This document shows positions 7,047 to 20,703 of a stretch of 64,000 nt of DNA, piece by piece (the first letter of the stretch is position 1; the number at the start of each line of letters is the position of its first letter). Both the position numbers and the translations under genes were made by a program. Origin of the DNA: Melioribacteraceae bacterium. GTDB lineage: Bacteria > Bacteroidota > Ignavibacteria > Ignavibacteriales > Melioribacteraceae. The notes beneath the pieces were generated by a model. It saw only the letters and a list, made by a program, of their open reading frames with translations. It made no database searches and was not told the DNA's origin. The stretch lies in the NCBI GenBank assembly GCA_015493615.1, contig WGCV01000041.1:124001-188000 (forward strand). Direction: 5' to 3'.

Positions 7047-8012
7047 TTACAGTAAATTAAACTTTACAGATAAAGAGTAGTATTCGACGCTGAATTCATC
7101 GTAGAAATGTTTTTCATAATTCATTATTAAACCGATTTGCCGAACCGGAAAAACTCTGATGTAAGCCGAGTAGGCGCCGGTTTCTTTATCGGGAATATTA
7201 TAGGAAATCAGATAATTTCTGTCGAAGTTGTATTTTCGTTCTCCGGCAAATCCCATTACGGAAAAATTAGCAAACTTGACGGGCGCCCAGAAAAATTCAA
7301 GATTAACAGATTTGTACAAAGAATCTGTTAGGAAACTATTCATAATTTGCGTCCCGAGCGTAACTGAAAACCATTGAGCCGGACGCCATTTAATGTCGCC
7401 GAATCCGACGACTAACTTTTCCGAGTTTCCGTACCCGTTAAATGATATATATTTAACCCCGAGAGAAGTGAAAAATAATTTGTAGTAGTAAACCCCTTCT
7501 CCCGAAAACATATTTCCCGATATATTGTAACTAAGATTAGCGTTGTTGTATTCACCGTTCAGATGGGCAAACGCACCCCTAATATAAAACGGGAAAAAAT
7601 TCATTAGCCCCTTAACGGCAAAGAAATTTTCATTGTAATCAAAAGTGTTTTCATTTAGACTAAACCTTTTATAAACGGCGGAGACTTCATCCAAAGTGGA
7701 GAAGTAATAATCTCCCCAAATCAAATATTGTGAAGAATTATTTTTATAAGAAGAATTATTGCCGACAACATATCCGCCCGTAACCGAAAGAAGACTTTTT
7801 CTCAGTTCCTGTGAGAAGAGGGAAGTTTGCAAAAGTAAAAAAAAGAGGATGAAGATAGTTATATTTTTTTTAGCGTTTGTTATCCCGACTACATTCGGGA
7901 ACTTTGAATATGAAAGACACAAATTTCTAAATCCTCTTTTTTCTCTAACTTTGTGTTTGCCGGCTTTATTCGGCAAAGAAAAAATAAATTTTAGGCGAAA
8001 GTTAATTTTCAT
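7047..8012 (-). CDS. Outer-membrane beta-barrel protein, unrecognised family (YaiO-like by context)
   Basis: From about residue 70 on, the protein is a run of alternating aromatic beta strands (YLIWGDYYFSTLDEVSAVYKRF, GEGVYYYKLFFTSLGVKYISF) ending in an aliphatic strand, as in small outer-membrane barrels. It follows a TPR gene by 12 bases, and TPR plus barrel is the arrangement of YaiO/PgaA-type proteins, but I cannot assign a family. A good signal peptide (NITIFILFFLLLQTSLFSQ) starts only at about residue 49. The first ~45 residues are probably not native: their DNA holds two small hairpins typical of intergenic repeats. No ATG, GTG or TTG lies right before the signal peptide, so either a TTG near 7925 or the far upstream ATG is used. 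Confidence 0.65.
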   Translation of the reverse strand: MKINFRLKFIFSLPNKAGKHKVREKRGFRNLCLSYSKFPNVVGITNAKKNITIFILFFLLLQTSLFSQELRKSLLSVTGGYVVGNNSSYKNNSSQYLIWGDYYFSTLDEVSAVYKRFSLNENTFDYNENFFAVKGLMNFFPFYIRGAFAHLNGEYNNANLSYNISGNMFSGEGVYYYKLFFTSLGVKYISFNGYGNSEKLVVGFGDIKWRPAQWFSVTLGTQIMNSFLTDSLYKSVNLEFFWAPVKFANFSVMGFAGERKYNFDRNYLISYNIPDKETGAYSAYIRVFPVRQIGLIMNYEKHFYDEFSVEYYSLSVKFNLL

Positions 8013-8024
8013 TTTTTATGTCGC

Positions 8025-8639
8025 TTATTTGGTTGCATTAAAGCCTTTTAACGCGCTCGGGTCGTTGGGGACAGCCATTAGAGCCGATTGAAAATACGCG
8101 TGTGCTTTTTTATTTCCGCCTACATAATAATTAGCCCAACCGAGATAGAGATTAGCGTTATAATCGGAAGGATAATTTTTTACGACATTCTCAAGAAAAA
8201 TTATCGAGTTCAGATAATCGCCCTGATTAAAATAAAGGAGGCCCATATTGAGATTCGCTTTGTAATTTTCGGGCGCTTTATCCAATATTTTCTTGTAAAT
8301 TGTTTTTAACGCGTTAATATTCTTTGCGGCTGAATACGGGTAAGTAATTCCGAGCAAAGCTTCAATACTGTTGGAGCTGATTCGGACGGCATTTTTGTAA
8401 TAGAAAAGGGATGTTTTATAATCGCCTTTAACGTAGTAAAGCCAGCCTAATCTCAAATTGTAGAGGTAGTTGTTTTTCTCTGCGGAATAATTTTTAGATA
8501 ATATATTAATCGCTTCATCATAGTTGCCGATTTTTTCGGCTGCAATTGATTGATAGAAAGCGGAAAGAGGTGTTTTTTCCTGAGCGAATGTAATGCTTAC
8601 CAGCAGTAACAAAACAGCCATTGATTTAATTATATTCAT
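8025..8639 (-). CDS. Secreted TPR-repeat protein
   Basis: A 204-residue protein with a signal peptide (MNIIKSMAVLLLLVSITFAQ). Four to five tetratricopeptide repeats follow, recognisable by 'A...G....Ai......' spacing, as in NYLYNLRLGWLYYVKGDY, YKANLNMGLLYFNQGDY and YNANLYLGWANYYVGGNK. TPRs are protein-interaction scaffolds, and a periplasmic location is expected. Its ribosome site AAGGAG lies inside the last codons of the urea-transporter/M23 gene 2 bases upstream, so both are on one transcript. It probably works with the adjacent barrel protein. The partner is unknown. Confidence 0.85.
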   Translation of the reverse strand: MNIIKSMAVLLLLVSITFAQEKTPLSAFYQSIAAEKIGNYDEAINILSKNYSAEKNNYLYNLRLGWLYYVKGDYKTSLFYYKNAVRISSNSIEALLGITYPYSAAKNINALKTIYKKILDKAPENYKANLNMGLLYFNQGDYLNSIIFLENVVKNYPSDYNANLYLGWANYYVGGNKKAHAYFQSALMAVPNDPSALKGFNATK

Positions 8640-8641
8640 TT

Positions 8642-10840
8642 CTAATCTCCTTTAACCTGTGCGGTAAAATTCTTTTCGTTTTTTCGATATGTGATTTTTT
8701 GTAAACCTGAGTCTGGCGAAATTATTATCTCGCCTTCTCCGTCTCTTTTATAGAACGAAAAAATTCCCGTTCCGAAAATCTTTAACTTAGAGCGAAGTGA
8801 AATAGTTTCATTTTCGTGTGAAAACCAATTATAAACTCCTTTTGATTTTATGACTTCTCCGTAGAAAAGGAAAAACTCGGAAATATATCGCGTAAAACCT
8901 TTAGTAACCGTACCGAGAGGGAAAACATCTTCCCAAAAGAGTTTTTCCGAATATCCCAGAGGAGCTTTTGAAGCTGATAAGTAGAAGAAATAGAGCGCGC
9001 TTTCCTGTTTGCCGATATAATTGGAAGCGTAAAATATTTTTTCGCTGATGAAAATATTCAGTCTGTCGCCGTTACGGTTTTCAATATAGAGCGTGTTAAG
9101 AATGTCAACATTTACTTTCCACCGCTCGGTGAATTTTTCCCCATCTAAAGAACAATTGAAAACGAATTCGTCTCCCAATTTAAAAGTAAAAGCATTTTTG
9201 ATAATTTTATGGACATCGATGTTCTTTACCGATTGATTTTCTTCGGGATAGTCGAACACTTTTAATTCCTCTCGGGAATCGGTTTTAAGAATATACTGAG
9301 AGAACGGAAACTTGTAAGTTTTATCTCCGAGCTTGTCCGTAAGCTGAAATTGAAAGTGAAGATGAGGTTTCGGAGAGCGACCGCTGTTTCCGCATCTCGC
9401 AACTACCTGACCCTTTTTTACTTTGTCGCCGACTTTGGGCAAAATAGATTTCCTTTTCAAATGGGACATCGAGGAAAAAAGTCCGTTCCCGTGATCAATA
9501 ATCAGAGTATTTCCCCAATTCTGCTCGAGGTTAACTTCGTCGATATTATTGTCGTGTACCGAATCGATTGCTTTTACAACTTCTCCGTCGAGAGGAGCGA
9601 CAACAGGCGTATTAAAACAATAAAAATCGGAGGGCTTAGCGCCGTCCCCGGAATAGAACTTTCCCGTTTCATCTGCTATCTCAAAATCCCAAGCATATTT
9701 CCACTCATCTTTATGCGTATGTTTACCATCGAAAGCCTGCGTAATCTTCCATTCGCCAAGAAATGGAAATTCGGGAAACATGTATTTGAAACCCTCAAAG
9801 CGGGCTGTTCTTGTCGTGTGGTAGTAATAGTTTTCTTCCGGCGAGCCCGGACTAAAATAAAGAAGAGTTAAATCGGTGCTCTCTTTTCTGAACTTCAAAC
9901 TGTAAATAGTAGAGAGAGCGACAAAGTTAAACGGAAGAACCAGCACCGGAAGAAGTTTTTCCGCAAGGATACTCTCGAAAAAAAGAGTGAAAATTATTGT
10001 AAAGAAAATAGTCATTAAGAGAAGGGGAATAGTTTTTTTTGATAGAATTATCATACTTCCGCCGAGAGCAAAAGCAATAAGTATTGCATTGAACGACGTT
10101 AAAATTAAAAGCGTGTATGAGGGATTTTTAAACAGGATACTGATTACTGCAAAATTGAAGAAAAAAGCAATCAGGGAGTTGATAAACATAACTCTTGAAA
10201 AAACAAGTATGATAATTAGAATCAAAAATCCGGCAACGGCTTTGCTCTGCAATAAAATTAGAGCTACAGAGTTCAAGAGAAGGTTTACGCAATCCGGAAG
10301 AAAACTAATGGCGCCGGTTGACGCAGTTAGCAAATCGCGATAAAGAACGCCGTTGAAATTGGTAACTACAATTAAGAAGATGTACAATGTTAAAATAAAC
10401 GGAAGACTTAATCCGGGCAGATTAAAAACGTTTGCCATTAAATGTTCCATTGAAGCGGAAATAAAAAAAGCGAGGAAAATAAAGACAATCGCCATTCCGA
10501 GAATAAGAGGCGTTATCTCGAAGAAAAATCCGATTGCGGCTCCAAGCAGTATTCCGTTAAATCCGTAGAAGCCCTTTCTGATTTTATCTTTATCGAAGTT
10601 AAGATAAAGAGCGAATGAATTTGAAAGGAGAACTCCGAGAAATCCGAGCGCGCCGACCTGAACATCAATAAATGAAATTAGGAGCGCCGCAAGCCCGAAC
10701 CACTTCCGGTTTGAGAAAAAAATCTGGGCGTAGCTGTATAAAACGGAATCTAAAAAGAGATTTCCATCACGCCAGACTGTAGAAATATCATTAAGTAATC
10801 GCATAAATAAACGATTGGATAAATAATCAGATTTGGTCAT
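8642..10840 (-). CDS. Urea-transporter domain fused to an M23 (LytM-like) peptidase domain
   Basis: A 732-residue fusion. Residues ~25-320 are hydrophobic with ~10 membrane segments and urea-transporter features (GFYGFNGILLGAAIGFFFE, VFNLPGLSLPFILTLYIF). Residues ~370-520 form an M23/LytM domain with PVVAPLDGEVV, NTLIIDHGNGLFSSMSHL, GDKVKKGQVVARCGNSG and the zinc motif HLHFQF. The usual first-ligand motif HxGxD appears as KYAWDF, with nearby histidines in HTHKDEW, so metal binding may be atypical. Residues ~540-732 are beta-rich and unrecognised. M23 enzymes cut peptidoglycan cross-bridges; inactive ones act as regulators. The gene sits between a PLP-decarboxylase gene (56-base gap) and a TPR gene (2 bases). 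Confidence 0.85.
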   Translation of the reverse strand: MTKSDYLSNRLFMRLLNDISTVWRDGNLFLDSVLYSYAQIFFSNRKWFGLAALLISFIDVQVGALGFLGVLLSNSFALYLNFDKDKIRKGFYGFNGILLGAAIGFFFEITPLILGMAIVFIFLAFFISASMEHLMANVFNLPGLSLPFILTLYIFLIVVTNFNGVLYRDLLTASTGAISFLPDCVNLLLNSVALILLQSKAVAGFLILIIILVFSRVMFINSLIAFFFNFAVISILFKNPSYTLLILTSFNAILIAFALGGSMIILSKKTIPLLLMTIFFTIIFTLFFESILAEKLLPVLVLPFNFVALSTIYSLKFRKESTDLTLLYFSPGSPEENYYYHTTRTARFEGFKYMFPEFPFLGEWKITQAFDGKHTHKDEWKYAWDFEIADETGKFYSGDGAKPSDFYCFNTPVVAPLDGEVVKAIDSVHDNNIDEVNLEQNWGNTLIIDHGNGLFSSMSHLKRKSILPKVGDKVKKGQVVARCGNSGRSPKPHLHFQFQLTDKLGDKTYKFPFSQYILKTDSREELKVFDYPEENQSVKNIDVHKIIKNAFTFKLGDEFVFNCSLDGEKFTERWKVNVDILNTLYIENRNGDRLNIFISEKIFYASNYIGKQESALYFFYLSASKAPLGYSEKLFWEDVFPLGTVTKGFTRYISEFFLFYGEVIKSKGVYNWFSHENETISLRSKLKIFGTGIFSFYKRDGEGEIIISPDSGLQKITYRKNEKNFTAQVKGD

Positions 10841-10864
10841 TCGTCATAGATTTTTAGTTTGTCT

Positions 10865-10896
10865 TCTCATTACTCATTACTCTTAACTCATTACTA
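10865..10896 (-). repeat. Short tandem TAATGAG-type repeats between two genes
   Basis: Read on the minus strand, the gap after the decarboxylase gene holds several near-repeats of GTAATGAG/GTTAAGAG in a row. They create stop codons in more than one frame. Their role is unknown; they may be a slippage-generated spacer. The gap has no hairpin terminator, which is compatible with read-through into the urea-transporter/M23 gene. Confidence 0.5.
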
Positions 10897-12261
10897 CTAA
10901 TCTGTTAATGTAAAATCGCTTAATTTTTCAGGAAGCCTTTCCTGTTCCGTGATGTTCTCGTTTGTTTCCGCGGCGCGAATTAATTCCACATCTCCTTCTT
11001 CCGTAATTAAAACGACATTTGGGCGGAGCGAAATAAATTGCATCCATTGCGTTACGCTGTACGCTCCCACGTATAGAACAACAAGTTTATCCCCTTTGTG
11101 CATAACGGGAAGAACCACATCGTCTCTGATAACGTCAATATTCATACATAGCGGTCCATATACTATTGTGTTTTCGGTAAATCCGCTTATTTCTTTTGTA
11201 GGTACTACTTTGTGGTTGAACCAATAACTTGTGAAAAGGTAATTTACTCCGGCGTCCATTATTAACGCCTGCTTACCTGTCGAGAGCCGTTTTGTCGCAA
11301 AAACCGAAGTAATCAGGTAACCTGAATCGTCGATTAAAGCGCGTCCAGTTTCAAGTGTTAAAACGGGAAGTTCGTCCGAAGGAAGATTAAGTTCAAACAG
11401 CGCTGATGTTATTGCGTCCGCGTAATCTTCATAGGTTGGCAGAAGCTGTTCGGCTTCCAGATACTGTCCTTTAAGCGTATTGTTTGAAGGGAATCCGCCG
11501 CCAAGATCGATGTATTCCAGTCTGACATTGTAGTTATCATAAATTTCTTTCGCTAAATCGACTAATTTCAAAGTGGCTTGGCGGTAAGGTTCGGCGCTCA
11601 TTATGTAAGTGCCAATGTGAGTATGCAGCCCTTTCAGCTCTAATCGTTCATCGTGGATTATTCTTTTAAGCGCAAGCATTGCTTCGCCGTTTTCGTAATT
11701 GAACCCGAATCTATTCCAAGGTGGATAGATTCCCGTATCCATATTAACGCGTATTGCGACGTTTGCAGTTAAATCAATTTTTTCCGTAATTTCCATTATT
11801 GAATAGAGTTCGTCAAAGTGATCGATGTGAATCAGCGCTTTTTCTCTGATTGCTTTTTCAAGCGCGGATTCGGATTTAAACGGGCCGTTAAAAATTATAT
11901 TTTCCCCTTTTACGCCGAGATCTCTCGCTTTGTCATATTCAAATTCCGAAACCACTTCCGCCCAAGAGCCTTCCTGATGATAAATTGAGCAGATTGCGCT
12001 TAAATAATTCGTTTTGTACGACCAAGCAAATCTGACTTTGGGATAACGTGTTTTGAATATTTTATTTAGTTTTCTGTATTTCTCGCGAATTTGTTTTTCG
12101 GAAAACACAAAGAGGGGGGAACCGAATTTTTCGGTTAACGAATCGATTTCGACATCGTCAATTTTGGTTATCGGTCTGAAAGTTTGCGTTGAACCGAATT
12201 TATTCATCATTCCCGAATGCTGTTTAAGAATTATCGGTTTTTCATATCTTTTCTTAGTCAT
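10897..12261 (-). CDS. Fold-type III PLP-dependent decarboxylase (diaminopimelate/ornithine-decarboxylase-like)
   Basis: A 454-residue protein with the alanine-racemase-type barrel and C-terminal beta domain of the LysA/SpeC-like family. The PLP lysine is in RFAWSYKTNYLSAI near residue 83. HTHIGTYI, EYIDLGGGFP, LETGRALI and the catalytic-cysteine segment YGPLCMNIDV (LysA usually has CESxD) are present, as is GAYSVTQWM. The site looks intact, but the altered residues after the Cys argue against plain meso-diaminopimelate decarboxylation. Its ATG overlaps the ATP-grasp stop by 8 bases. By analogy with BtrK, which works with ATP-grasp BtrJ in butirosin synthesis, it may decarboxylate an amino acid attached to a carrier or peptide. 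That analogy is inference. Confidence 0.85.
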   Translation of the reverse strand: MTKKRYEKPIILKQHSGMMNKFGSTQTFRPITKIDDVEIDSLTEKFGSPLFVFSEKQIREKYRKLNKIFKTRYPKVRFAWSYKTNYLSAICSIYHQEGSWAEVVSEFEYDKARDLGVKGENIIFNGPFKSESALEKAIREKALIHIDHFDELYSIMEITEKIDLTANVAIRVNMDTGIYPPWNRFGFNYENGEAMLALKRIIHDERLELKGLHTHIGTYIMSAEPYRQATLKLVDLAKEIYDNYNVRLEYIDLGGGFPSNNTLKGQYLEAEQLLPTYEDYADAITSALFELNLPSDELPVLTLETGRALIDDSGYLITSVFATKRLSTGKQALIMDAGVNYLFTSYWFNHKVVPTKEISGFTENTIVYGPLCMNIDVIRDDVVLPVMHKGDKLVVLYVGAYSVTQWMQFISLRPNVVLITEEGDVELIRAAETNENITEQERLPEKLSDFTLTD

Positions 12262-13297
12262 TTCTTAATACTCCGTTTACTGTAATATCTTCAAATTTTT
12301 TCATATCTACAATTAAATCCCATGAATAGCGGATGAAAATTTTCCCTACTTCGTAGTTTTCAAAAGGTTCAATTTTTTCGCCGAGAGCTAATTGAAGAGC
12401 TGCGTAAGGCAGGTTTTGCCCCGCTCCGACTGCGAGATAAACCCAAGCCGGAAAACGCGGGTTAATTTCAAGGAGGAAATATTCTCCCGTATCACGTTTT
12501 TTAACAAATTCAAATTCCGCTCCGCCTCTCCAATTTAGGGCTTTAATTATCTTTTGCGAGATGGACAGAAGCTCCTCGTCCATTATTGTTACTCCCGCCC
12601 AGCCTTTGCCTTTATCTGTAATATACATCTTTTTGCTTGCAACGGCTCCGATAGCTGTTCCTTCGCCGTCTCCTAATGCGACAACATTGTACTCCTCGCC
12701 GCTGATAAACTCCTGAACAATAATGGGCAATCCCCATTTGGAAGCCATCTTGGTAAAATATGCAGAAGCTTCCTGGAAATTATGAGCGACATATGCGTCG
12801 TAAAAAATCCCTTTGATAACAACGGGATACTGCAATTCTTTCGGTAAAGCGTATAAATCATTTATTGAAGAAGCTATAATGTTATAAGGAGCGTTAATAT
12901 TGTTTTTTGTGCAGAAATCAAAAAGTTTGTCTTTTCCTCTTAAGACCAGCTGCTCCATTGTCGGAACAAGGGTCTTGATTCCCAGGTCATTAAGCTTGCC
13001 GGAAAGTTTTGAAAATGCAAAAAGTTCGGCGTCAAGTGTCGGGAAAATTACATCAATTTTCTCAAACGAGTTGATATAAGCCAGTCTGTCAAAGAATGAC
13101 TCTATTCCGCTTGATGGGTAGGGAATTAAATAACTTCGAGAAGTTACTTCTCTCATATATGCTCCTGGCTCAAGAGCGTCGTATAACAAACCTATTATTT
13201 CGCCTTCAAATTTACCTGAATCTTTAATGCCTCGGATTACGGGAACTCCCGGTCCCGGGCTGTCAACGTTGTTCAATCCGGTTACTGCAACTTTCAT
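12254..13297 (-). CDS. CarB/PylC-like ATP-grasp ligase
   Basis: A 347-residue protein with an N-terminal pre-ATP-grasp Rossmann domain (MKVAVTGLNNVDSPGPGVPVIRGI, 'VIFPTLDAELFAFSKL'). The ATP-grasp domain follows: the nucleotide-binding lysine in YPVVIKGIFYDAYVA, IVQEFISGEEYNVVALGD, and the metal site FLLEINPRFPAW. Such enzymes activate a carboxylate as an acyl phosphate and join it to an amine. The substrate is unknown. The ATG overlaps the upstream pqqD-like TGA (ATGA), and the downstream decarboxylase overlaps its own stop by 8 bases. Tight co-translation of the three implies a shared pathway. Confidence 0.87.
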   Translation of the reverse strand: MKVAVTGLNNVDSPGPGVPVIRGIKDSGKFEGEIIGLLYDALEPGAYMREVTSRSYLIPYPSSGIESFFDRLAYINSFEKIDVIFPTLDAELFAFSKLSGKLNDLGIKTLVPTMEQLVLRGKDKLFDFCTKNNINAPYNIIASSINDLYALPKELQYPVVIKGIFYDAYVAHNFQEASAYFTKMASKWGLPIIVQEFISGEEYNVVALGDGEGTAIGAVASKKMYITDKGKGWAGVTIMDEELLSISQKIIKALNWRGGAEFEFVKKRDTGEYFLLEINPRFPAWVYLAVGAGQNLPYAALQLALGEKIEPFENYEVGKIFIRYSWDLIVDMKKFEDITVNGVLRND

Positions 13298-13548
13298 AAT
13301 TCTTCCACTAATTTAAGGTTTCTGAGCAGAGTCAAAAATTCGTCAAAATCTCTTTGAGCCGTATCAATATCAATATCAAATTCATTTGTCAGCAAACTTA
13401 ATATTTCTTCTTCGCTTTTATTTTCTTTTAGATTATTAATTATAAATCTTCCCGTTTCGTTTACGGTAAAAGATTCTCCGCTGTTTGCCATAAATAAAAA
13501 GCCGCTTTCACTGACAGCCAAGTTATCCGATATTTTATATTCAGACAT
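13294..13548 (-). CDS. PqqD-like protein (possible RiPP recognition element)
   Basis: An 84-residue protein matching the PqqD pattern: an N-terminal strand pair (LAVSESGFLFM..SGESF), then FTVNETGRFIINNLKENKSEEEIL and a C-terminal helix FDEFLTLLRNLKLVEEL. PqqD proteins are winged-helix peptide chaperones that bind the leader of a ribosomal peptide and present it to modifying enzymes. Stand-alone relatives also occur beside ATP-grasp genes without a known peptide. GGGAG lies about 10 bases before the ATG. It is the first well-supported gene of the cassette. No radical-SAM PqqE partner is present, so a PQQ role is unlikely. Confidence 0.85.
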   Translation of the reverse strand: MSEYKISDNLAVSESGFLFMANSGESFTVNETGRFIINNLKENKSEEEILSLLTNEFDIDIDTAQRDFDEFLTLLRNLKLVEEL

Positions 13549-13624
13549 AAAATTTTTCTCCCATGTTAATTTCTTGTTTAGACAAGTTAAAACTTATTTT
13601 GGTTTAATTTAATATACTAATTTT

Positions 13625-13697
13625 TGGAAATCGGGGAATGATATAAATCACTCTTTTTGTTATATGATTTTATGGCGGAATTTCTTAATCCCCGATA
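13625..13697. promoter_or_regulatory. Long-looped inverted repeat upstream of the pqqD-like gene
   Basis: Arms ATCGGGGA (~13630-13637) and TCCCCGAT (~13689-13696) face each other across ~50 bases. The left arm lies between the small ORF end and the pqqD-like gene. It could be an RNA stem separating a highly expressed leader/peptide gene from the enzymes, or an operator pair. No T-run follows, so it is not a standard terminator. Confidence 0.3.
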
Positions 13698-13777
13698 ATG
13701 CTGCATGAAGATACGGATTCAATTTCCCACATAAAGTCCCAACAATTTTTACATGTGATTTTTTCATACGGGGACAT
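13685..13777 (-). CDS. Possible 30-residue cysteine-containing peptide ORF upstream of the pqqD-like gene
   Basis: An ATG-to-TAA reading frame of 30 codons begins 20 bases after the FapA-like stop and ends 136 bases before the pqqD-like start. It begins MSPYEKITCKNCWDF and has three Cys, CxxC at residues 9-12 and one more at 25. Codon choice resembles neighbouring genes. Only a weak AAAGAA precedes the ATG. It could be a peptide substrate for the PqqD/ATP-grasp/decarboxylase set, a decayed zinc ribbon (CxxC...CxxI), or chance. A second overlapping frame (13660-13767, 35 codons) exists, which lowers confidence. Confidence 0.3.
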   Translation of the reverse strand: MSPYEKITCKNCWDFMWEIESVSSCSIIGD

Positions 13778-13797: not shown

Positions 13798-15537
13798 TTA
13801 TGAAATTTTCATCTCTTCATTTTCATTTAGAGTAAAAGTTTTATTTCTTAATTTATCGGTTACTTTAAAAACGGTTTTTTTTATAACGATTTCGACGCCG
13901 GGATAAATATCGCCCGTAATTTTAACTTTTGATTCGGAAGGCATATTTAAGATTTTATCGAGTTCAGCTTTCTCTGCCGCCATTACCTCAAAAGTATTTT
14001 TTAGCTCTTGATATTCGGAAATTATTTCTTTTAAACGGCGCTTACCCTTTATTGATAAATTTTCCGGATTGGAATATTGCTTCAGTCTTATTTCTTTTTT
14101 CTTTAGTTTTTCTTTCATCTCGTTAATTGCCAATGACAACCGTAATGATTTTTCAAGAAGCGCATAATCAAGTCCGACGTGTATTCGTGTTTTTACTCCG
14201 AATTCATTTCCCGCAGATTTGATCTCGACATCTTTTTCAGCGATTGAAGTTCCGCCAATTATTCTTGCATTTCCCGCCATTGATTTTATGCTTCCTTTGG
14301 CGTAAAGTTTTGCGTCAACAGCTTCTTTCATTATGATTATATCGCCATCTGCATTAACAGACTGATTCCGTATGTGACGCACTTTTACATCTCCGGCAGC
14401 GGTGATTTTGCCCTTGCCGCTTCCGCCAAAGCCCCCGTTAATCGTAATCGTTCCTTGCGACTTAATCTCAGCGTCATTTATAAAACCGTTTATTGTGATG
14501 CTTTTATCAATGTCTAATTTAAATCCGCTCCGAACGTCTCCGTTTACATTTAACGCTCCTTTGCTCGAAATATTCCCGGTATGGAAATCAACATTCCCTT
14601 TAACGTTATATTTCTCCGTAACGTTCAGTTTTCCGTTTGAATTTGTTAAGTATCCGTTAATATCGGAAAGGAGAACATTCGGCTCTTCCTCCCGGTAGTA
14701 GGTATGAGTTCCTTTCGGGTCGGGCGCTTTTTTTACCGGCTCCGGTTTTGTGGATCTGCCGAGTACGTCAACTCCCGCTTTACCGGGAATCGGAGGATGA
14801 ACTATCGCCAGTTTTTCATCTTGCTCAACGGTGATAATCGTTCCCATGTTGTAGAAATCAACTCTTTGATTACCGTCTATATTATTCTTTTTCTCTTTTT
14901 TCATTTTTACGAGGTATTCCACCCAACCCTCTTTAGCCGGCTGAGGAAAAGTCCCTCGCGCTATTTCAACATCCGTAAATGGCTGCTGTGAAGTTTCCAG
15001 CATTTTCAAATATTTACTTATCAGTTTTACATCCGGCGTGGCTGTAATTTTAAGCTCTTTGAACTTTAACAATATTTCATCAAGAGAAAGATTTTTGTAA
15101 CCTTTTGCGGGGGGATAAAAACTGCATTTTACGCTCATAGCGTCTTTCGTGATCTCCAAGAGAAAAGATGCGTTTTTACGTACCGGTAAAATTGAATATA
15201 AGTTATCTTCCAAAATAAAAAAACCTTCAACCGAAGAATAAAATTTCCCGTTTTCCGAATGAATATTCTTCCAAACTTGTGTAATATTAGCCGTGGGTTT
15301 ATTTGCGCCGGAGTTTTCATCGATTGTGGAGAAAAGCAAAGTATTTGCCGGGAGCATTTTGTTAAAAACGATTAGTTTTTCAACGCTAAACAAATACAAC
15401 TGGTTCTCAATAAGGAGTTGTTTAATTTTTTCGGTTTCCATCAATGAAAGCGGAACGGCTTCTAAGAATAAATTCGAGGTTTTTCCGGAGTCGGTATTTT
15501 TCATAATGTTCGAGCTTTTAGTGACAAATTCCGGCAT
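13798..15537 (-). CDS. FapA/DUF342 family protein
   Basis: A 579-residue protein. The central region (~200-430) shows the FapA glycine-rich parallel-beta pattern (GNVDFHTGNISSKGALNVNG, TINGGFGGSGKGKITAAGDV), preceded by the conserved IVHPPIPGKAGVDVLGRSTKPEP. A charged coiled-coil helix at ~450-525 and a short beta domain close the chain. FapA-type proteins are named for a link to flagellar assembly in Vibrio, but DUF342 proteins are widespread in non-flagellate bacteria and their biochemistry is unclear. No flagellar genes are in the window. Start at the ATG 15537; an internal ATG 11 residues later is an alternative. Confidence 0.85.
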   Translation of the reverse strand: MPEFVTKSSNIMKNTDSGKTSNLFLEAVPLSLMETEKIKQLLIENQLYLFSVEKLIVFNKMLPANTLLFSTIDENSGANKPTANITQVWKNIHSENGKFYSSVEGFFILEDNLYSILPVRKNASFLLEITKDAMSVKCSFYPPAKGYKNLSLDEILLKFKELKITATPDVKLISKYLKMLETSQQPFTDVEIARGTFPQPAKEGWVEYLVKMKKEKKNNIDGNQRVDFYNMGTIITVEQDEKLAIVHPPIPGKAGVDVLGRSTKPEPVKKAPDPKGTHTYYREEEPNVLLSDINGYLTNSNGKLNVTEKYNVKGNVDFHTGNISSKGALNVNGDVRSGFKLDIDKSITINGFINDAEIKSQGTITINGGFGGSGKGKITAAGDVKVRHIRNQSVNADGDIIIMKEAVDAKLYAKGSIKSMAGNARIIGGTSIAEKDVEIKSAGNEFGVKTRIHVGLDYALLEKSLRLSLAINEMKEKLKKKEIRLKQYSNPENLSIKGKRRLKEIISEYQELKNTFEVMAAEKAELDKILNMPSESKVKITGDIYPGVEIVIKKTVFKVTDKLRNKTFTLNENEEMKIS

Positions 15538-15916
15538 TAACGGATTTGTCTGTATTATTTAATTTTTTCAACTAACTATCGGAAATTTTTCGTTAATGTT
15601 TAATCTCTCACTTTCCCTAAACATGGACAAGCCGGAACAGAAAAGAATTGTAAAAGATAAAATAATTTTTTCTTAACGCGGTTTATCGTTTATTTGTACG
15701 TTTCATCTCGCAGACGGCATCATCCGCCTCAATCAGAAATGGTGGGACCGTAACGAAAAGCGTTGCGGTAAACTCTGATATTCAATCCTAATTCAGATGA
15801 TAACTTTCATAAAACAAACTAATTTTGGTTGAATGTATATTATTTTATATTTTGATTTTGTGTGTTCTATTTTATCGTGTAAATTGAAGTTAACTAAAAT
15901 TAAGATTAAAGTTCCG
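15538..15916. other. Divergent intergenic region with a repeated hairpin
   Basis: This separates the minus-strand FapA gene from the plus-strand kinase operon, so it should carry promoters for both; I could not place a consensus confidently. At 15747-15769, ACCGTAACG-AAAAG-CGTTGCGGT forms a 9-base near-perfect hairpin followed by AAAC. A similar GAAAAGCG hairpin occurs at 36486-36507. An open frame extends upstream from 15917 to 15833, but its translation has no signal-peptide character and is probably not used. Confidence 0.45.
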
Positions 15917-17533
15917 ATGAAAACATTAAAAAGTGCGCCATGGTATTTTCTCTCTTTAATTCTTGTTTTATTTCTCCTAAATTCTTGTCAAAATAACAAA
16001 AACAGAAAAACCAATTTCAATAAAGGCGGAACTTTAAATGTTAAAATATTCTCGCCGGTAGAAACACTTGATCCGAATAAGATTTTATATTTATCAGACT
16101 TTTTGGCTTCGCGATTAATATACGATGGATTGGTTGGAGATTCCGAAAATAATACAGGACTTGCCGAAAAATGGGAAAAATCGAAAGATGGTTTGCGATA
16201 CGTATTTCACCTAAAAAAAGGAATATTGTTTCACAGTGATCCATGTTTCAAATCCGACAAAGAACGCGAACTTACCGCATCGGATGTTTTGTTCACATTC
16301 AAAAGAATTGCCGACCGTAAAAATCCAAGCGTTAATTTTTCTCTTTTCGCCGATAAAATCAAAGGGATACGATATTATCAGCAAGGTTTAACGGATACAA
16401 TCTCAGGCATTAAAATAATAAATAAATTTTCGATTGAATTTATTTTAAACAAGCCATATGTTGTTTTTTTGAAATTACTTGCTTCGCCTTCCGCTTTTAT
16501 TCTTTCAGAAAAAGCGGTTAATTATTACGGAGATGAAATCGCCGAACATCCAATAGGAACGGGCCCGTTTAAACTTTCTTTTTGGAACCCGACAGAGGAA
16601 GTTTATTTTATTCGCAACAAAAACTACCGCCGAAAAAACAAAAACGGTAAGAGATTACCATTTCTCGATGCGGTTTCATTTAAGTTTTTTTCAAATGAAA
16701 AAGAAAAAATAGGCGATTTATTTAAAGGGAAATGCGATTACATTTCGCTCGACAGAGGTGAATATATTTCGCTTAAGAACGAGTTAGACAGGGCAAAGTT
16801 CAAAATAATCAAAACTCAAAATGCGCTGAAAATACGATTCTTCGGATTTTCTTTTGAAAAGAATACTCCGCTTGCCAAAAATCCGGAATTACGGAAAGCG
16901 CTTGCGTATTCATTGAACAGACAAAAGTTATATGTTTCGTCGGAGTTTAAGAATTTTCCGCAGAACACTCTTGCCCCGGCTTCGTTATTAGGCGATTCAA
17001 CTTTGCGCTGGTACCAATTCAATCCGGTAAAAAGTAAAAGTTTAGTGAAAAATTTCAGCAATGACAAGAACATTTACGAATTATCATCTTCGGTAAATGC
17101 GCCGTTTCTCAATATTATTGAATCGGGGATGAAATCTTTGAATTTAAAAGTAGTCAAAAATGTGAACCCGAAACGATATTACGAAAGGATTATTAAAAAT
17201 CGTCCGGATATTTTCAGAATTAGTATGTCGCCTTCTTTCCCGGATATTTCGGAGTATTACCAGTTATTCTATTCAAAAAGTGGAAAGTTTGTTAATTTAT
17301 TCGATTACAAAAATCCGGAATTTGATAAAATTTTTGAAAAGTCTCAGATAGAAGATAATCCAACCGAAAGGCGCCGGCTTTTTCGTCGGCTCGAAAAAAT
17401 TCTGAGGGACGATGTTGCTGCAATTTATGTCTCCGAAGAAAAATATTTTTACAACATTGTCCGTAAAAGAGTAAAAAATTTTACCATCAGAAATGGTTTC
17501 CCCGACTTTGCTCTGATTTGGCTTGACAAATGA
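15917..17533 (+). CDS. Solute-binding lipoprotein of the peptide/oligopeptide family (SBP_bac_5)
   Basis: A ~538-residue extracytoplasmic binding protein. The ATG at 15917 gives an ideal lipoprotein signal (LILVLFLLNSC, acylated Cys ~24). DppA/OppA-type features follow: GGTLNVKIFSPVETLDPNKI, LIYDGLVGDSENNTGLAEKW, 'RYVFHLKKGILFHSD', 'IGTGPFKLSFWN' and a C-terminal FPDISEYYQLFYSKSG. Binding proteins of this family usually feed ABC importers, but no permease or ATPase gene is nearby. Instead its TGA overlaps the ATG of a membrane histidine kinase. A ligand-sensing role for that kinase is the simplest inference. The ligand (peptide, nickel or other) is unknown. Confidence 0.9.
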   Translation: MKTLKSAPWYFLSLILVLFLLNSCQNNKNRKTNFNKGGTLNVKIFSPVETLDPNKILYLSDFLASRLIYDGLVGDSENNTGLAEKWEKSKDGLRYVFHLKKGILFHSDPCFKSDKERELTASDVLFTFKRIADRKNPSVNFSLFADKIKGIRYYQQGLTDTISGIKIINKFSIEFILNKPYVVFLKLLASPSAFILSEKAVNYYGDEIAEHPIGTGPFKLSFWNPTEEVYFIRNKNYRRKNKNGKRLPFLDAVSFKFFSNEKEKIGDLFKGKCDYISLDRGEYISLKNELDRAKFKIIKTQNALKIRFFGFSFEKNTPLAKNPELRKALAYSLNRQKLYVSSEFKNFPQNTLAPASLLGDSTLRWYQFNPVKSKSLVKNFSNDKNIYELSSSVNAPFLNIIESGMKSLNLKVVKNVNPKRYYERIIKNRPDIFRISMSPSFPDISEYYQLFYSKSGKFVNLFDYKNPEFDKIFEKSQIEDNPTERRRLFRRLEKILRDDVAAIYVSEEKYFYNIVRKRVKNFTIRNGFPDFALIWLDK

Positions 17534-19326
17534 AACTTCGCTTAAACATACGAAAAAAAATTCTGCTTTCTTTTATGGCGTTTGCCTTTTTACTGCTGCT
17601 TGCGGTGGTAAATTTTTTCTATTTTCAAACTAAAAATAATATTAAAGAAAGGGCTGAAAGCAACTCGGTTAGAACGTCAAATCAATTTAAAATTCAAATG
17701 GATAAAAATATTGACGATGCATTTGTTGAACTTAAAGGAATTGTTGACTTTGGCTTAAAAGGAACAGTTGCCTCCAATCCGGATTTTAATAAGAAACTTC
17801 ACGAGAATATTATAAATTTGCTATCTATTTTTCCGGCTAAATATTCAAAATTGATTTTAATTAGACTCAATTCAGACCAAATTTCTGTTTTTACTCCATT
17901 GCGGCTTTTCAACGGAAAAATAACAGTCGAAGAAAAAAGCGAAAAGATTTCTTTCTTAAATCAATCGCTTGTTAACAAAATTTCTGTTTCGAACAAAAGA
18001 CGACAGATAATCAGCGATGCCGCTAAAAGCGGAAAGGAATTAATACTCGTTTCTCCGGTTAAAAAAACAAACGATATAAGATTAATTGCATTTTTACGCA
18101 CGGGAAAAATTGCCGGTAAAGCGCTGCGTAATCTTTCGCTTTCGGATAACGAAACCGTATTTCTCTTTGACAGAGAGCAAAGAATCATTTTTTCTTCGGA
18201 AAAGATAATGATTAACCGGTTATTCGGCGAGGTTCCTTTAGGGCGGAAAGACGAGGTTATTTCCGTTTTAAAAAAATATCCTGAAATTGATATGAATATT
18301 GCGGCGTTGACAAATACAAGCGCCGAAACCGGGAAATTGCTGGAGGTGATTAAACAGGTAATCTATTTTAGCGTTGTTATTTTTATTTTGCTTTTCGGAT
18401 TGATTTATATTGTTTCCGGGCGGACTTCAAAATCTCTAAATCAAATTACTGAAGCTGCGGGTGAAATAGCGGGTGGAGATTTTTCCCACAAAATAGAGGC
18501 GACTCGGGAAGACGAAATCGGAACGCTAATTGATTCATTTAACAAAATGGCTGATAATCTTGAAATAATGTTTCATAAATTAAACATTGCCAATAGTGAG
18601 CTTGAGCGGAAAATTGAGGAGCTTACCTCCGCAAAAATCGAATTGTCGGAAAAACAACGGCTCGCATTGATTGGTGAAACCGTATCGAAAATTTCTCACG
18701 AAATCCAAAATAAAATGAGTGGAATTTCAATTTGGGTGCAGAATCTTGAGATGCAGACTGACCCCGGCAGTCCGCTTCGCCTTTATGTGAATGAGATTAA
18801 AACGGCGCTTGCTTCTTTTATGAATTTGCTCGTAAATTTTAAGAAATTCTATCGACGGCCGCAATTGATGCTTGAGAAAACCGACATTGAGGACCTCGTA
18901 AGTAATATTTTTAAAAAATATTCTCAACAAATTGAAGAAAAAAAAATAAATGTCGTGAAGTTGTTTCCCGAAACGGCTCCGGCAGTAAATATCGACAAAG
19001 GAATGATTGAAGAAACAATCGAAAATATTTTGCTGAATGCGATTTTTTTTACTCCGCAGAAAGGCAAAATTACAGCGGGCTTGATTTTTAAGAAAGGCGA
19101 AATTGAAATAAACATTTGCAACACAGGCAAAACAATAGAAGTTGAACCGCCGAATAAAATATTTCAACCGTTTTTTACAACAAAAGCAAGCGGTAGCGGA
19201 CTCGGTTTGGCAATCTGCAAAAATGCAGTTGAAGCTCACGGAGGAAAAATATTCGCTAAAAACATTGAAAACGAGGGAGTTTGCTTCGCAATCATTCTCC
19301 CCGCAACAATTGTAAATGACAAATAA
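17530..19326 (+). CDS. Membrane sensor histidine kinase (HAMP, HisKA, HATPase)
   Basis: A 598-residue kinase. TM1 is at ~11-33, a ~240-residue periplasmic sensor lies between, TM2 is at ~276-297 and the HAMP segment at ~298-350 (GGDFSHKIEATREDEIG). A short coiled coil precedes the phosphoacceptor His390 in SKISHEIQNKMSG. The ATPase N-box is near Asn503 (ENILLNAIFFTP), and the G2 box GSGLGLAICK is at ~555-564. The usual Asp of the first G-box is Asn (CNTGK), seen in some active kinases. It overlaps the binding-lipoprotein gene by ATGA and precedes the NtrC-type regulator by 12 bases. This is a three-gene sensing unit. Confidence 0.93.
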   Translation: MKLRLNIRKKILLSFMAFAFLLLLAVVNFFYFQTKNNIKERAESNSVRTSNQFKIQMDKNIDDAFVELKGIVDFGLKGTVASNPDFNKKLHENIINLLSIFPAKYSKLILIRLNSDQISVFTPLRLFNGKITVEEKSEKISFLNQSLVNKISVSNKRRQIISDAAKSGKELILVSPVKKTNDIRLIAFLRTGKIAGKALRNLSLSDNETVFLFDREQRIIFSSEKIMINRLFGEVPLGRKDEVISVLKKYPEIDMNIAALTNTSAETGKLLEVIKQVIYFSVVIFILLFGLIYIVSGRTSKSLNQITEAAGEIAGGDFSHKIEATREDEIGTLIDSFNKMADNLEIMFHKLNIANSELERKIEELTSAKIELSEKQRLALIGETVSKISHEIQNKMSGISIWVQNLEMQTDPGSPLRLYVNEIKTALASFMNLLVNFKKFYRRPQLMLEKTDIEDLVSNIFKKYSQQIEEKKINVVKLFPETAPAVNIDKGMIEETIENILLNAIFFTPQKGKITAGLIFKKGEIEINICNTGKTIEVEPPNKIFQPFFTTKASGSGLGLAICKNAVEAHGGKIFAKNIENEGVCFAIILPATIVNDK

Positions 19327-19338
19327 TCAGGAATAAAA

Positions 19339-20703
19339 ATGCAAATTTTATTGGTTGACGACGACGCGACAATCCGCCGCGGCATTGAAGTGTTTTTGAA
19401 AAGTTTGAATTACACTGTTTCCTCTGTTTCCGACGGGAAAGAGGCGCTTATTGTTTCGGAACGAGAAAATTTTGATTTAATTATTTCGGACGTTCAGATG
19501 CCCGGACTTAGCGGAATTGAATTATTAAATGCTTTGCGAAAAAATAAAAATCCCATGCCGGTGATAATAATAACGGCGTTTGCGACGATAGAAGATGCGG
19601 TAACGGCAATGAAAATGGGCGCAAGCGATTATTTGACAAAACCGCTGAATCTTGAAGAACTGCAATTGAAAATCGTGAAAATAGAAAACGAATTAAAATT
19701 AAAAAGAGAAAACGCCGAACTGAAAGAAAGATTAAGGCAAATTGTTCATCCGGAAATAATAGGGGAAAGCGCTGCAATTGCCGAGGTAAAAAAAATGATA
19801 GGTAAAGCGGCGTTAAGAGACGACGTTCCGGTAATGATTTACGGCGCAAGCGGCACGGGAAAAGAGCTTGCCGCAAGGGCAATTCATAACGCAGGGGAAA
19901 GGAAGGATAAACCTTTTGTTGAGGTTAATTGCGCAGCAATGCCGGATGATCTGCTCGAAAGCGAGCTTTTCGGATATGTGAAAGGCGCATTTACCGGGGC
20001 GGTAAAGGATAAAGACGGATTATTTAAAGCTGCGGACGGCGGAACTCTTTTTTTAGATGAAGTAGGCGAAATGTCGCCTCGGTTGCAGGCTAAATTATTG
20101 CGGGTTTTGCAGGATTTTAAGATTCAACCGCTCGGAACAACAAAATCGTTTCAGGTTGACGTCCGCATTATCGGCGCAAATAATATTCGACTTCAGGACT
20201 TGGTTGCAAGTAAAAAATTTAGAGAAGATTTGTTTTACAGAATAAATGTAGCCGAAATTACGCTTCCGCCCCTTGCAGATAGAAAAGAAGACATTCCTTT
20301 GCTGCTCGAACATTTTATTTCATCGCCGAAAATCAAAGAGAAAATAAGATTTACCAAGGAAGCTCTTGATGTTTTAGTCAATTACAACTGGCGCGGGAAT
20401 GTTCGCGAACTTGAAAACTTCGTGAAATCAATTTCCGTTTTTACAGAAAAAAATGTAATCGATAAAAATGATTTACCTGAACACATTTTGAACCAATTCT
20501 ATGCATTGAAACACGAATGGAATTATCTATTTACAAACAACAATTTTCAAGAAGCGCAGAAAATCATTCTGGAAGATTTTGAAAAGAAATTCTTGGAGTT
20601 TCACCTTCGTAAGAACAATGGAAACATTACCCGAACAGCCGAGGCAATAGGGCTTTCGCGGGTTTCGTTACATAAAAAAATTAATGATTACGGCTTAGAG
20701 TAA
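19339..20703 (+). CDS. Sigma-54-dependent NtrC-family response regulator
   Basis: A 454-residue regulator. The receiver has an acidic cluster at D7-D9, phosphoacceptor D51 (LIISDVQMPG) and K101. The AAA+ domain has Walker A GASGTGKE (~169-176), the sigma-54 contact loop GAFTGA (~216-221) and Walker B TLFLDEVGE. A C-terminal Fis-type helix-turn-helix (NITRTAEAIGLSRVSLHKKI) ends the chain. All motifs needed for activation of sigma-54 polymerase are intact. The upstream kinase is the obvious partner. A near-consensus sigma-54 promoter starts ~180 bases downstream, so the target operon is probably adjacent. Confidence 0.96.
   Translation: MQILLVDDDATIRRGIEVFLKSLNYTVSSVSDGKEALIVSERENFDLIISDVQMPGLSGIELLNALRKNKNPMPVIIITAFATIEDAVTAMKMGASDYLTKPLNLEELQLKIVKIENELKLKRENAELKERLRQIVHPEIIGESAAIAEVKKMIGKAALRDDVPVMIYGASGTGKELAARAIHNAGERKDKPFVEVNCAAMPDDLLESELFGYVKGAFTGAVKDKDGLFKAADGGTLFLDEVGEMSPRLQAKLLRVLQDFKIQPLGTTKSFQVDVRIIGANNIRLQDLVASKKFREDLFYRINVAEITLPPLADRKEDIPLLLEHFISSPKIKEKIRFTKEALDVLVNYNWRGNVRELENFVKSISVFTEKNVIDKNDLPEHILNQFYALKHEWNYLFTNNNFQEAQKIILEDFEKKFLEFHLRKNNGNITRTAEAIGLSRVSLHKKINDYGLE

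Follow-up and report, generated by a model that had tools for sequence, protein, structure and literature searches.

A lasso-type RRE and the leader-like N-terminal tail of a PLP decarboxylase in a conserved gene cassette of Bacteroidota

A stretch of 64,000 nucleotides from a Melioribacteraceae genome (assembly GCA_015493615.1, contig WGCV01000041.1, positions 124,001 to 188,000; hereafter the window) carries a cassette of six adjacent genes, designated here by single letters: D (PqqD-like), G (ATP-grasp), L (pyridoxal phosphate (PLP) decarboxylase), U (a fusion of a urea-transporter (UT) domain and an M23 peptidase), T (TPR) and B (barrel-like). At the level of profiles and alignments, the current work shows that D is a recognition element for ribosomally synthesized and post-translationally modified peptides (RiPP recognition element, RRE) of the lasso type, and that decarboxylase L itself carries a leader-like tail at its N-terminus. 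This tail was missed by an earlier note on the same DNA, in which the cassette was described as a candidate new system with a possible small peptide gene in front.

Statistics for the tail of L, for D and for G were drawn from 173 distinct cassettes. Each L protein with an intact N-terminus has an extension of about 23 residues before the decarboxylase domain, in short form [YF]ExPx[IV]...K-x-G. The consensus, with counts, is K-x-x-[Y148/F25]-E169-[R/K]-P173-x-[I/V/L]173-x-[K/R]-x3-G163-x2-N142-K173-[F/Y]-G172, and the spacing from the first aromatic residue to the last glycine shows zero length variation. In the AlphaFold2 model of L, residues 1-26 have a pLDDT (predicted local distance difference test) below 50, while the remainder is a confident fold. 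Thus, a disordered stretch is conserved with the strictness expected of an active site. In LysA paralogues from eight cassette-bearing genomes the tail is absent.

The motif [Y/W]xxPx[L/V/I/F/A] is known to be bound by the discrete RREs of lasso-peptide systems (PMC13381572, PMC6784204, PMC12710340). In lasso leaders it occupies positions -17 to -12, with Gly1 as the start of the core (PMC10368454). The tail of L matches YxxPx[I/V/L] in the same register, with Tyr at -17, Pro at -14, Ile at -12, Lys21 at -2 and Gly23 at +1. No other open reading frame (ORF) near the cassettes carries the leader motif, and elsewhere in the genomes, where a second leader carrier was sought, motif matches occurred at about control level. 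A direct PDB search with the tail peptide, a query too short for this purpose, gave no match. The separate small precursor proposed in the earlier note is thus not borne out. The ORF of 30 residues upstream of D (about 13686-13777; MSPYEKITCKNCWDFMWEIESVSSCSIIGD) was considered as a precursor and rejected: its frame is open, but its best match in other cassette loci has an E value of 0.18, and it has no leader motif. By these comparisons it probably lies outside the system.

D belongs to the PF05402 fold family and is nearest to the B1 RREs of lasso-peptide systems. Compared with solved RREs, the family profile of D matched TbiB1 at 1e-13 and TfuB1 at 1e-9, and PqqD proper at 0.01. Weak matches of D to calmodulin were judged compositional and disappeared when the family profile was used. 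HMMER alignments of D to chains 9x8z_B and 9x90_B contain no gaps over the relevant part; these chains are taken to be LppB and PbaB1, respectively, because a tag offset of 18 makes their residues match the published letters. In these alignments, Asn30 of D falls on N33 of LppB and G42 of PbaB1, and Asp67 of D on their residues D70 and Q79, respectively. In the complex of LppB with its leader, D70 forms a hydrogen bond with the leader Tyr and N33 holds the Pro kink; the N33A substitution nearly abolished complex formation, D70A weakened it, and the double substitution G42N/Q79D in PbaB1 dramatically enhanced binding of a Tyr leader (PMC13381572). Asn is found at position 30 in all 173 D proteins.

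Position 67 of D varies, and it varies together with the tail. Among the 148 cassettes with a Tyr tail, residue 67 is Asp in 145 and Asn in 3; among the 25 with a Phe tail it is Tyr, Ser, Ala or His. The pairing of Asp or Asn with Tyr rather than Phe is therefore 148:0 against 0:25. Phe has no hydrogen-bond donor for the contact in question, and Asp and Asn never stand opposite Phe tails. When 828 variable columns of D, L and G were compared, position 67 of D was, apart from the tail position, the sole perfect separator of the two classes. Mapped on the ATP-grasp tree, both traits change five times, all five changes coincide, and Tyr/Asn pairs occur inside the Phe group. When five changes were placed at random, 0 of 200,000 trials gave this pattern; the check presupposes this tree. 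The pairing, the column control and the tree pattern, taken with the published LppB contact, make it very probable that D binds the tail of L.

The solved protein most similar to L is the N-citrylornithine decarboxylase FslC (7kh2; 32% identity, template-modelling score TMt 0.88), ahead of the diaminopimelate (DAP) decarboxylases, and L also matches BtrK (4.7e-40). The site of L reads GPLCMNID in 166 of 169 readable sequences. In the eight LysA paralogues of cassette-bearing genomes it is GPVCE[ST]GD, and FslC has GPSCMQHD at the same place. L scores 229 bits against the LysA model (cut-off 298) and 251 bits against the FslC model NCBIfam NF041039 (cut-off 500); it is not a member of the latter family but scores higher against it than against LysA. 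The non-LysA residues reported in the earlier note are thus real, and by these scores L does not side with the true DAP decarboxylases; a tight grouping with them would, according to the note, have refuted its proposal. A separate canonical LysA is present in most cassette genomes. In the window genome, which comprises 3.15 Mb and is 97% complete, no canonical LysA was found, and L is the sole PF02784 protein. Several other cassette genomes also have no canonical LysA, and 19 of 116 relatives gave no match whatever to PF02784.

In G, residues K122, K162, E202, E263, E277, N279 and R281 are kept in essentially all 173 cassettes, and all of these but K162 are listed as fully invariant. An ATP-grasp enzyme and a PLP decarboxylase are adjacent, with the catalytic residues of both conserved; no acyl-carrier protein (ACP) is found among the six genes. 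The amino acids that FslC and BtrK decarboxylate already bear another group on their side chain. Such substrates fit an ATP-grasp partner for L, and for this reason ligation followed by decarboxylation is our best guess for the chemistry of G and L, held with moderate confidence. The analogy with BtrJ/BtrK drawn in the earlier note is apt.

The two halves of U could be assigned with the help of an AlphaFold2 model (pLDDT 90). In Foldseek searches U matched the whole of dvUT (3k3f, TMt 0.81) and, separately, M23 domains of the LytM type. The UT part has the full two-repeat fold, covering positions 2-289 of the 292 of PF03253. The H/D/HxH zinc site of M23 is present, with H376 and D385 just ahead of the Pfam match, and its residues (H376, D385, H460, H493, H495) are conserved in each of the 91 aligned homologues that extend over the site. 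UT proteins consist of two inverted halves. The glycosylated site of human UT-B, N211 (PMC10541013), lies between these halves and must be extracellular, which should place both termini in the cytosol. Lys and Arg counts in U, 4.67 in the flanks and 1.89 in the central loop, agree weakly with this orientation in 80 of 90 sequences. If the topology of the UT family holds, these data suggest weakly that the M23 domain lies in the cytoplasm beside D, G and L. M23 enzymes usually act on peptidoglycan in the periplasm; a cytoplasmic location would be odd for the family and would suit a role on the tail of L. In one genome (G120, locus L188:5900-6140), U is interrupted at a run of seven T, which leaves two ORFs, one for the UT part and one for M23, the latter without a signal peptide. 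This split was rejected as proof of a cytoplasmic M23 domain, as a frameshift, sequencing error, slippage or fission may have occurred at the run.

T, and probably B, carry N-termini resembling signal peptides. The annotated ATG of B lies about 45 residues ahead of its signal-peptide-like stretch, so the true start may lie further downstream. In Bacteroidia, a gene of about 440 codons, X, stands between U and T, and the C-terminal part of its product is related to B (hhalign 97.5%, E 5e-12).

The searches covered Bacteroidota, relatives of the window genome among them. A search with G gave matches in 40 of 116 related genomes, a few being partial or distant ATP-grasp hits. The order D-G-L-U-T was identical in the 36 loci examined, as far as the contigs reach. 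A scan of species representatives found at least 568 relatives; the best 80 of these keep D-G-L-U-T, barring contig ends and a few rearranged T genes, and come from Ignavibacteria, Bacteroidales, Flavobacteriales, Chitinophagales, Balneolaceae and cyclobacteria. The sequences closest to the present cassette are from Melioribacteraceae and Ignavibacteriales. Isolated strains with the cassette include Rhodonellum psychrophilum DSM 17998 and Algoriphagus sp. AK58. In an even sample of the phylum (395 genomes), G was found in 34 and U in the identical 34, and the UT-M23 fusion occurs in this sample only with the cassette. By class, G was found in 75 of 395 genomes in one class and in 13 of 245 in another. 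No cassette was found by the G search in relatives from the genus of the window genome itself, which implies that the cassette was gained or lost as a unit.

The association of the six genes is thus, on conserved order and co-occurrence, real and beyond chance. The earlier note had allowed that its two halves might be linked merely by co-transcription. None of the loci examined has the cassette in scattered form, U accompanies it in 34 of 34 genomes, and no terminator-like site was found in the gap between L and U (10841-10896); the link between the halves therefore goes beyond accidental co-transcription. Outside the core, no generally conserved family was found in the flanks, where conserved neighbors are lineage-specific only. 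In 24 of 61 large loci, D is preceded on its own strand, often immediately, by a gene for a secreted protein of about 500 residues, and these proteins form one family (e.g. L079:6003-7646). The 3.74-Mb contig G047:C1 has the same cassette near each of its ends, at 3.9 kb and at 3735 kb, probably because a circular chromosome was assembled with overlapping ends. Another locus (L096, CALPRR020000125.1) is labelled Candidatus Kuenenia stuttgartiensis, and its cassette groups with flavobacterial ones; it is probably mislabelled or from a mixed bin.

The mechanism favored here, which we rate as a whole as somewhat better than an even bet, is that G and L, held together by D, produce either a small metabolite with an amine group or a modified polypeptide. 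With high confidence, D would bind residues 3-13 or so of L in the way that lasso leaders are bound by RREs, by beta-strand addition and with pockets for the Tyr and for the Pro/Ile. RREs normally serve the next enzyme. Since, in addition, the D and G genes are translationally coupled, D is expected, with moderate confidence, to sit on G and bring L to the ligase. G would form an amide at the side chain of an amino acid, on a carboxylate or an amine, and the amino acid thus extended would be decarboxylated by L, in the manner of FslC and BtrK. The acceptor could be a free small molecule, if the tail merely docks, or the K21-x-G23 end of the tail, if the tail is a carrier. More speculatively, U might anchor the unit to the inner membrane and let a small solute, an amide or a urea-like compound, through its UT pore, while its M23 domain might trim a peptide, perhaps in the cytoplasm; export or the outer membrane might be served by T and B/X.

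Several points weigh against this mechanism. The strongly supported branches of the ATP-grasp tree force only two of the five coincident changes, and a test of independent pairs contains 2 supported pairs, too few for significance alone; the argument accordingly leans on the exceptionless pairing, on the comparison of columns and on the published contact. The side of the membrane on which M23 lies is the least certain part, as it is derived from UT-family topology and a weak charge bias. In the window genome, which has no separate LysA, L may by genome content alone have a LysA role. In addition, the tail may merely tether L. In that case D would be a pure scaffold, and the contact between RRE and tail would tether L to G, or to D on U, so that a small-molecule intermediate is channelled, with the tail neither cut nor modified. 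We give this almost an even chance. In its favor, the tail is disordered and fully conserved, D is a single-domain protein, and the relatives FslC and BtrK act on diffusible or carrier-bound substrates. What docking leaves unexplained is that K21 and G23, 10-12 residues past the RRE motif, are as invariant as the Pro (173/173 and 172/173). Judged by the residues concerned, processing or loading of the tail would explain this invariance, as well as the lasso register, better than docking alone. L might then be both enzyme and precursor, cut at F22-G23 by M23 or another protease, or loaded by G at K21 or at the freed amine of Gly23, to yield a mature or self-carrying decarboxylase; we regard this as possible but clearly less probable than docking. 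A lasso precursor is cut before Gly1, and G23 lies at the +1 position of a lasso core with K21 at -2 (register from PMC10368454); M23 is the sole peptidase of the cassette, catalytically intact, and cytosolic by UT topology. On the other hand, the agreement in register could have arisen by chance, the cassette has no B2 peptidase of the lasso type, and the normal setting of M23 enzymes is the periplasm. In its stricter form, with L as an enzyme and a RiPP-like precursor that carries its own substrate, M23 cutting before Gly23 or G ligating an amino acid to Lys21/Gly23, the proposal is more doubtful still.

Two more conventional explanations are less probable than these. RREs normally bind precursor peptides, and the cassette could accordingly be part of an ordinary RiPP cluster whose precursor, encoded elsewhere, is the substrate of D and G, with the tail of L as a relic or mimic. 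This is unlikely, as no motif-bearing ORF lies near the cassette, matches elsewhere remain at about the control level, and a relic would not co-vary perfectly with its binding partner. L could also be a plain diaminopimelate decarboxylase of lysine biosynthesis with incidental neighbors, being the only PF02784 protein of the window genome. This candidate was rejected and is regarded as very improbable: the active site (CMNID vs CE[ST]GD) and the model scores differ from those of LysA, a separate canonical LysA co-exists in most other cassette genomes, and the cassette is inherited as a unit.

Among known systems, the lasso B1 RREs (TfuB1, TbiB1, PadeB1) are of the same family as D; D has the Asn and Asp of the Pro-kink and Tyr contacts, and its partner carries YxxPx[I/V/L] in the same register; here, however, the leader is the N-terminus of a PLP enzyme of about 450 residues. 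Unlike a lasso cluster, the cassette, as judged from its six typed genes and their flanks, lacks a precursor peptide, an asparagine-synthetase-like cyclase and a B2 peptidase. The BtrI-BtrJ-BtrK system of butirosin likewise combines an ATP-grasp ligase with a fold-type III PLP decarboxylase, the two working one after the other, whereas the cassette replaces its acyl-carrier protein with an RRE and an enzyme tail and has linked UT-M23, TPR and barrel genes. FslC, from the rhizoferrin pathway, shares the Cys-Met of its site with L but has no tail matching that of L; to our knowledge, the partner synthetase in the FslC pathway is not an ATP-grasp enzyme. The borosin protein OphMA is a self-modifying enzyme joined to a RiPP-type peptide. 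It is a different enzyme, its peptide is C-terminal where that of L is N-terminal, and it has no RRE; self-modification would apply to L only under the hypothesis above. The folds of the two halves of U are those of dvUT and of LytM-type M23 domains, but U fuses both and adds a C-terminal beta domain. No description of the cassette, nor of a lasso-type RRE acting on a metabolic enzyme, was found in the open-access literature searched. D is thus a member of a known family that would act like a lasso RRE, and its cargo, an enzyme, appears to be new.

The coordinates of the genes and of the residues discussed above are collected in Table 1. All six ORFs lie on the minus strand, and their coordinates bear out the positions and junctions given in the earlier note; the PqqD/ATP-grasp/decarboxylase core is likewise supported by Pfam. 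D and G overlap by 4 bases (ATGA) and G and L by 8 bases; gaps of 56, 2 and 12 bases separate L from U, U from T and T from B, respectively. Upstream of D lies a gene for a FapA/DUF342 beta-solenoid protein (13798-15537, minus strand), followed at 15833-20703 on the plus strand by genes for a family 5 solute-binding protein, a HAMP histidine kinase and a sigma-54 response regulator.

Table 1. Genes of the cassette and selected features, with positions in the window
Feature	Position	Strand	Evidence or remark
D: PqqD-like / lasso-type discrete RRE, 84 aa	13294..13548	-	PF05402 4e-14
D Asn30, equivalent of LppB N33 (holds leader proline kink)	13459..13461	-	173/173; gap-free HMMER alignment
D Asp67, equivalent of LppB D70 (H-bonds leader tyrosine)	13348..13350	-	co-varies with Tyr/Phe of L tail
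G: ATP-grasp ligase, PRK12767 / ATPgrasp_Ter-like, 347 aa	12254..13297	-	PF15632 5e-13
L: fold-type III PLP decarboxylase, 454 aa, site GPLCMNID	10897..12261	-	PF02784 + PF00278; Orn/DAP/Arg decarboxylase 2e-28
L residues 1-23, leader-like tail MTKKRYEKPIILKQHSGMMNKFG	12193..12261	-	disordered, conserved, fixed spacing
U: urea-transporter-fold membrane domain + M23 peptidase + C-terminal beta domain, 732 aa	8642..10840	-	PF03253 (UT) 2e-47, PF01551 (M23) 8e-18
M23 domain of U (Pfam match)	9341..9613	-	site residues H376, D385, H460, H493, H495
T: exported TPR protein, 204 aa	8025..8639	-	TPR_2 2e-13; signal-peptide-like N-terminus
B: barrel-like exported protein	7047..8012	-	no Pfam or NCBIfam match

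The cassette is not a rarity, occurring in about one tenth of the sampled Bacteroidota genomes and about one fifth of one sampled class. The pairing of D67 with Y6 of the tail offers a cheap and sharp experimental handle on it. RREs serve to mark RiPP clusters, on the assumption that their ligands are precursor peptides. If an RRE has a large metabolic enzyme for a partner, either the pair of RRE and leader can be used as an ordinary docking module, or RiPP-like processing takes place on an enzyme. If L does carry its own substrate, it would be a PLP enzyme matured by the logic of lasso peptides.

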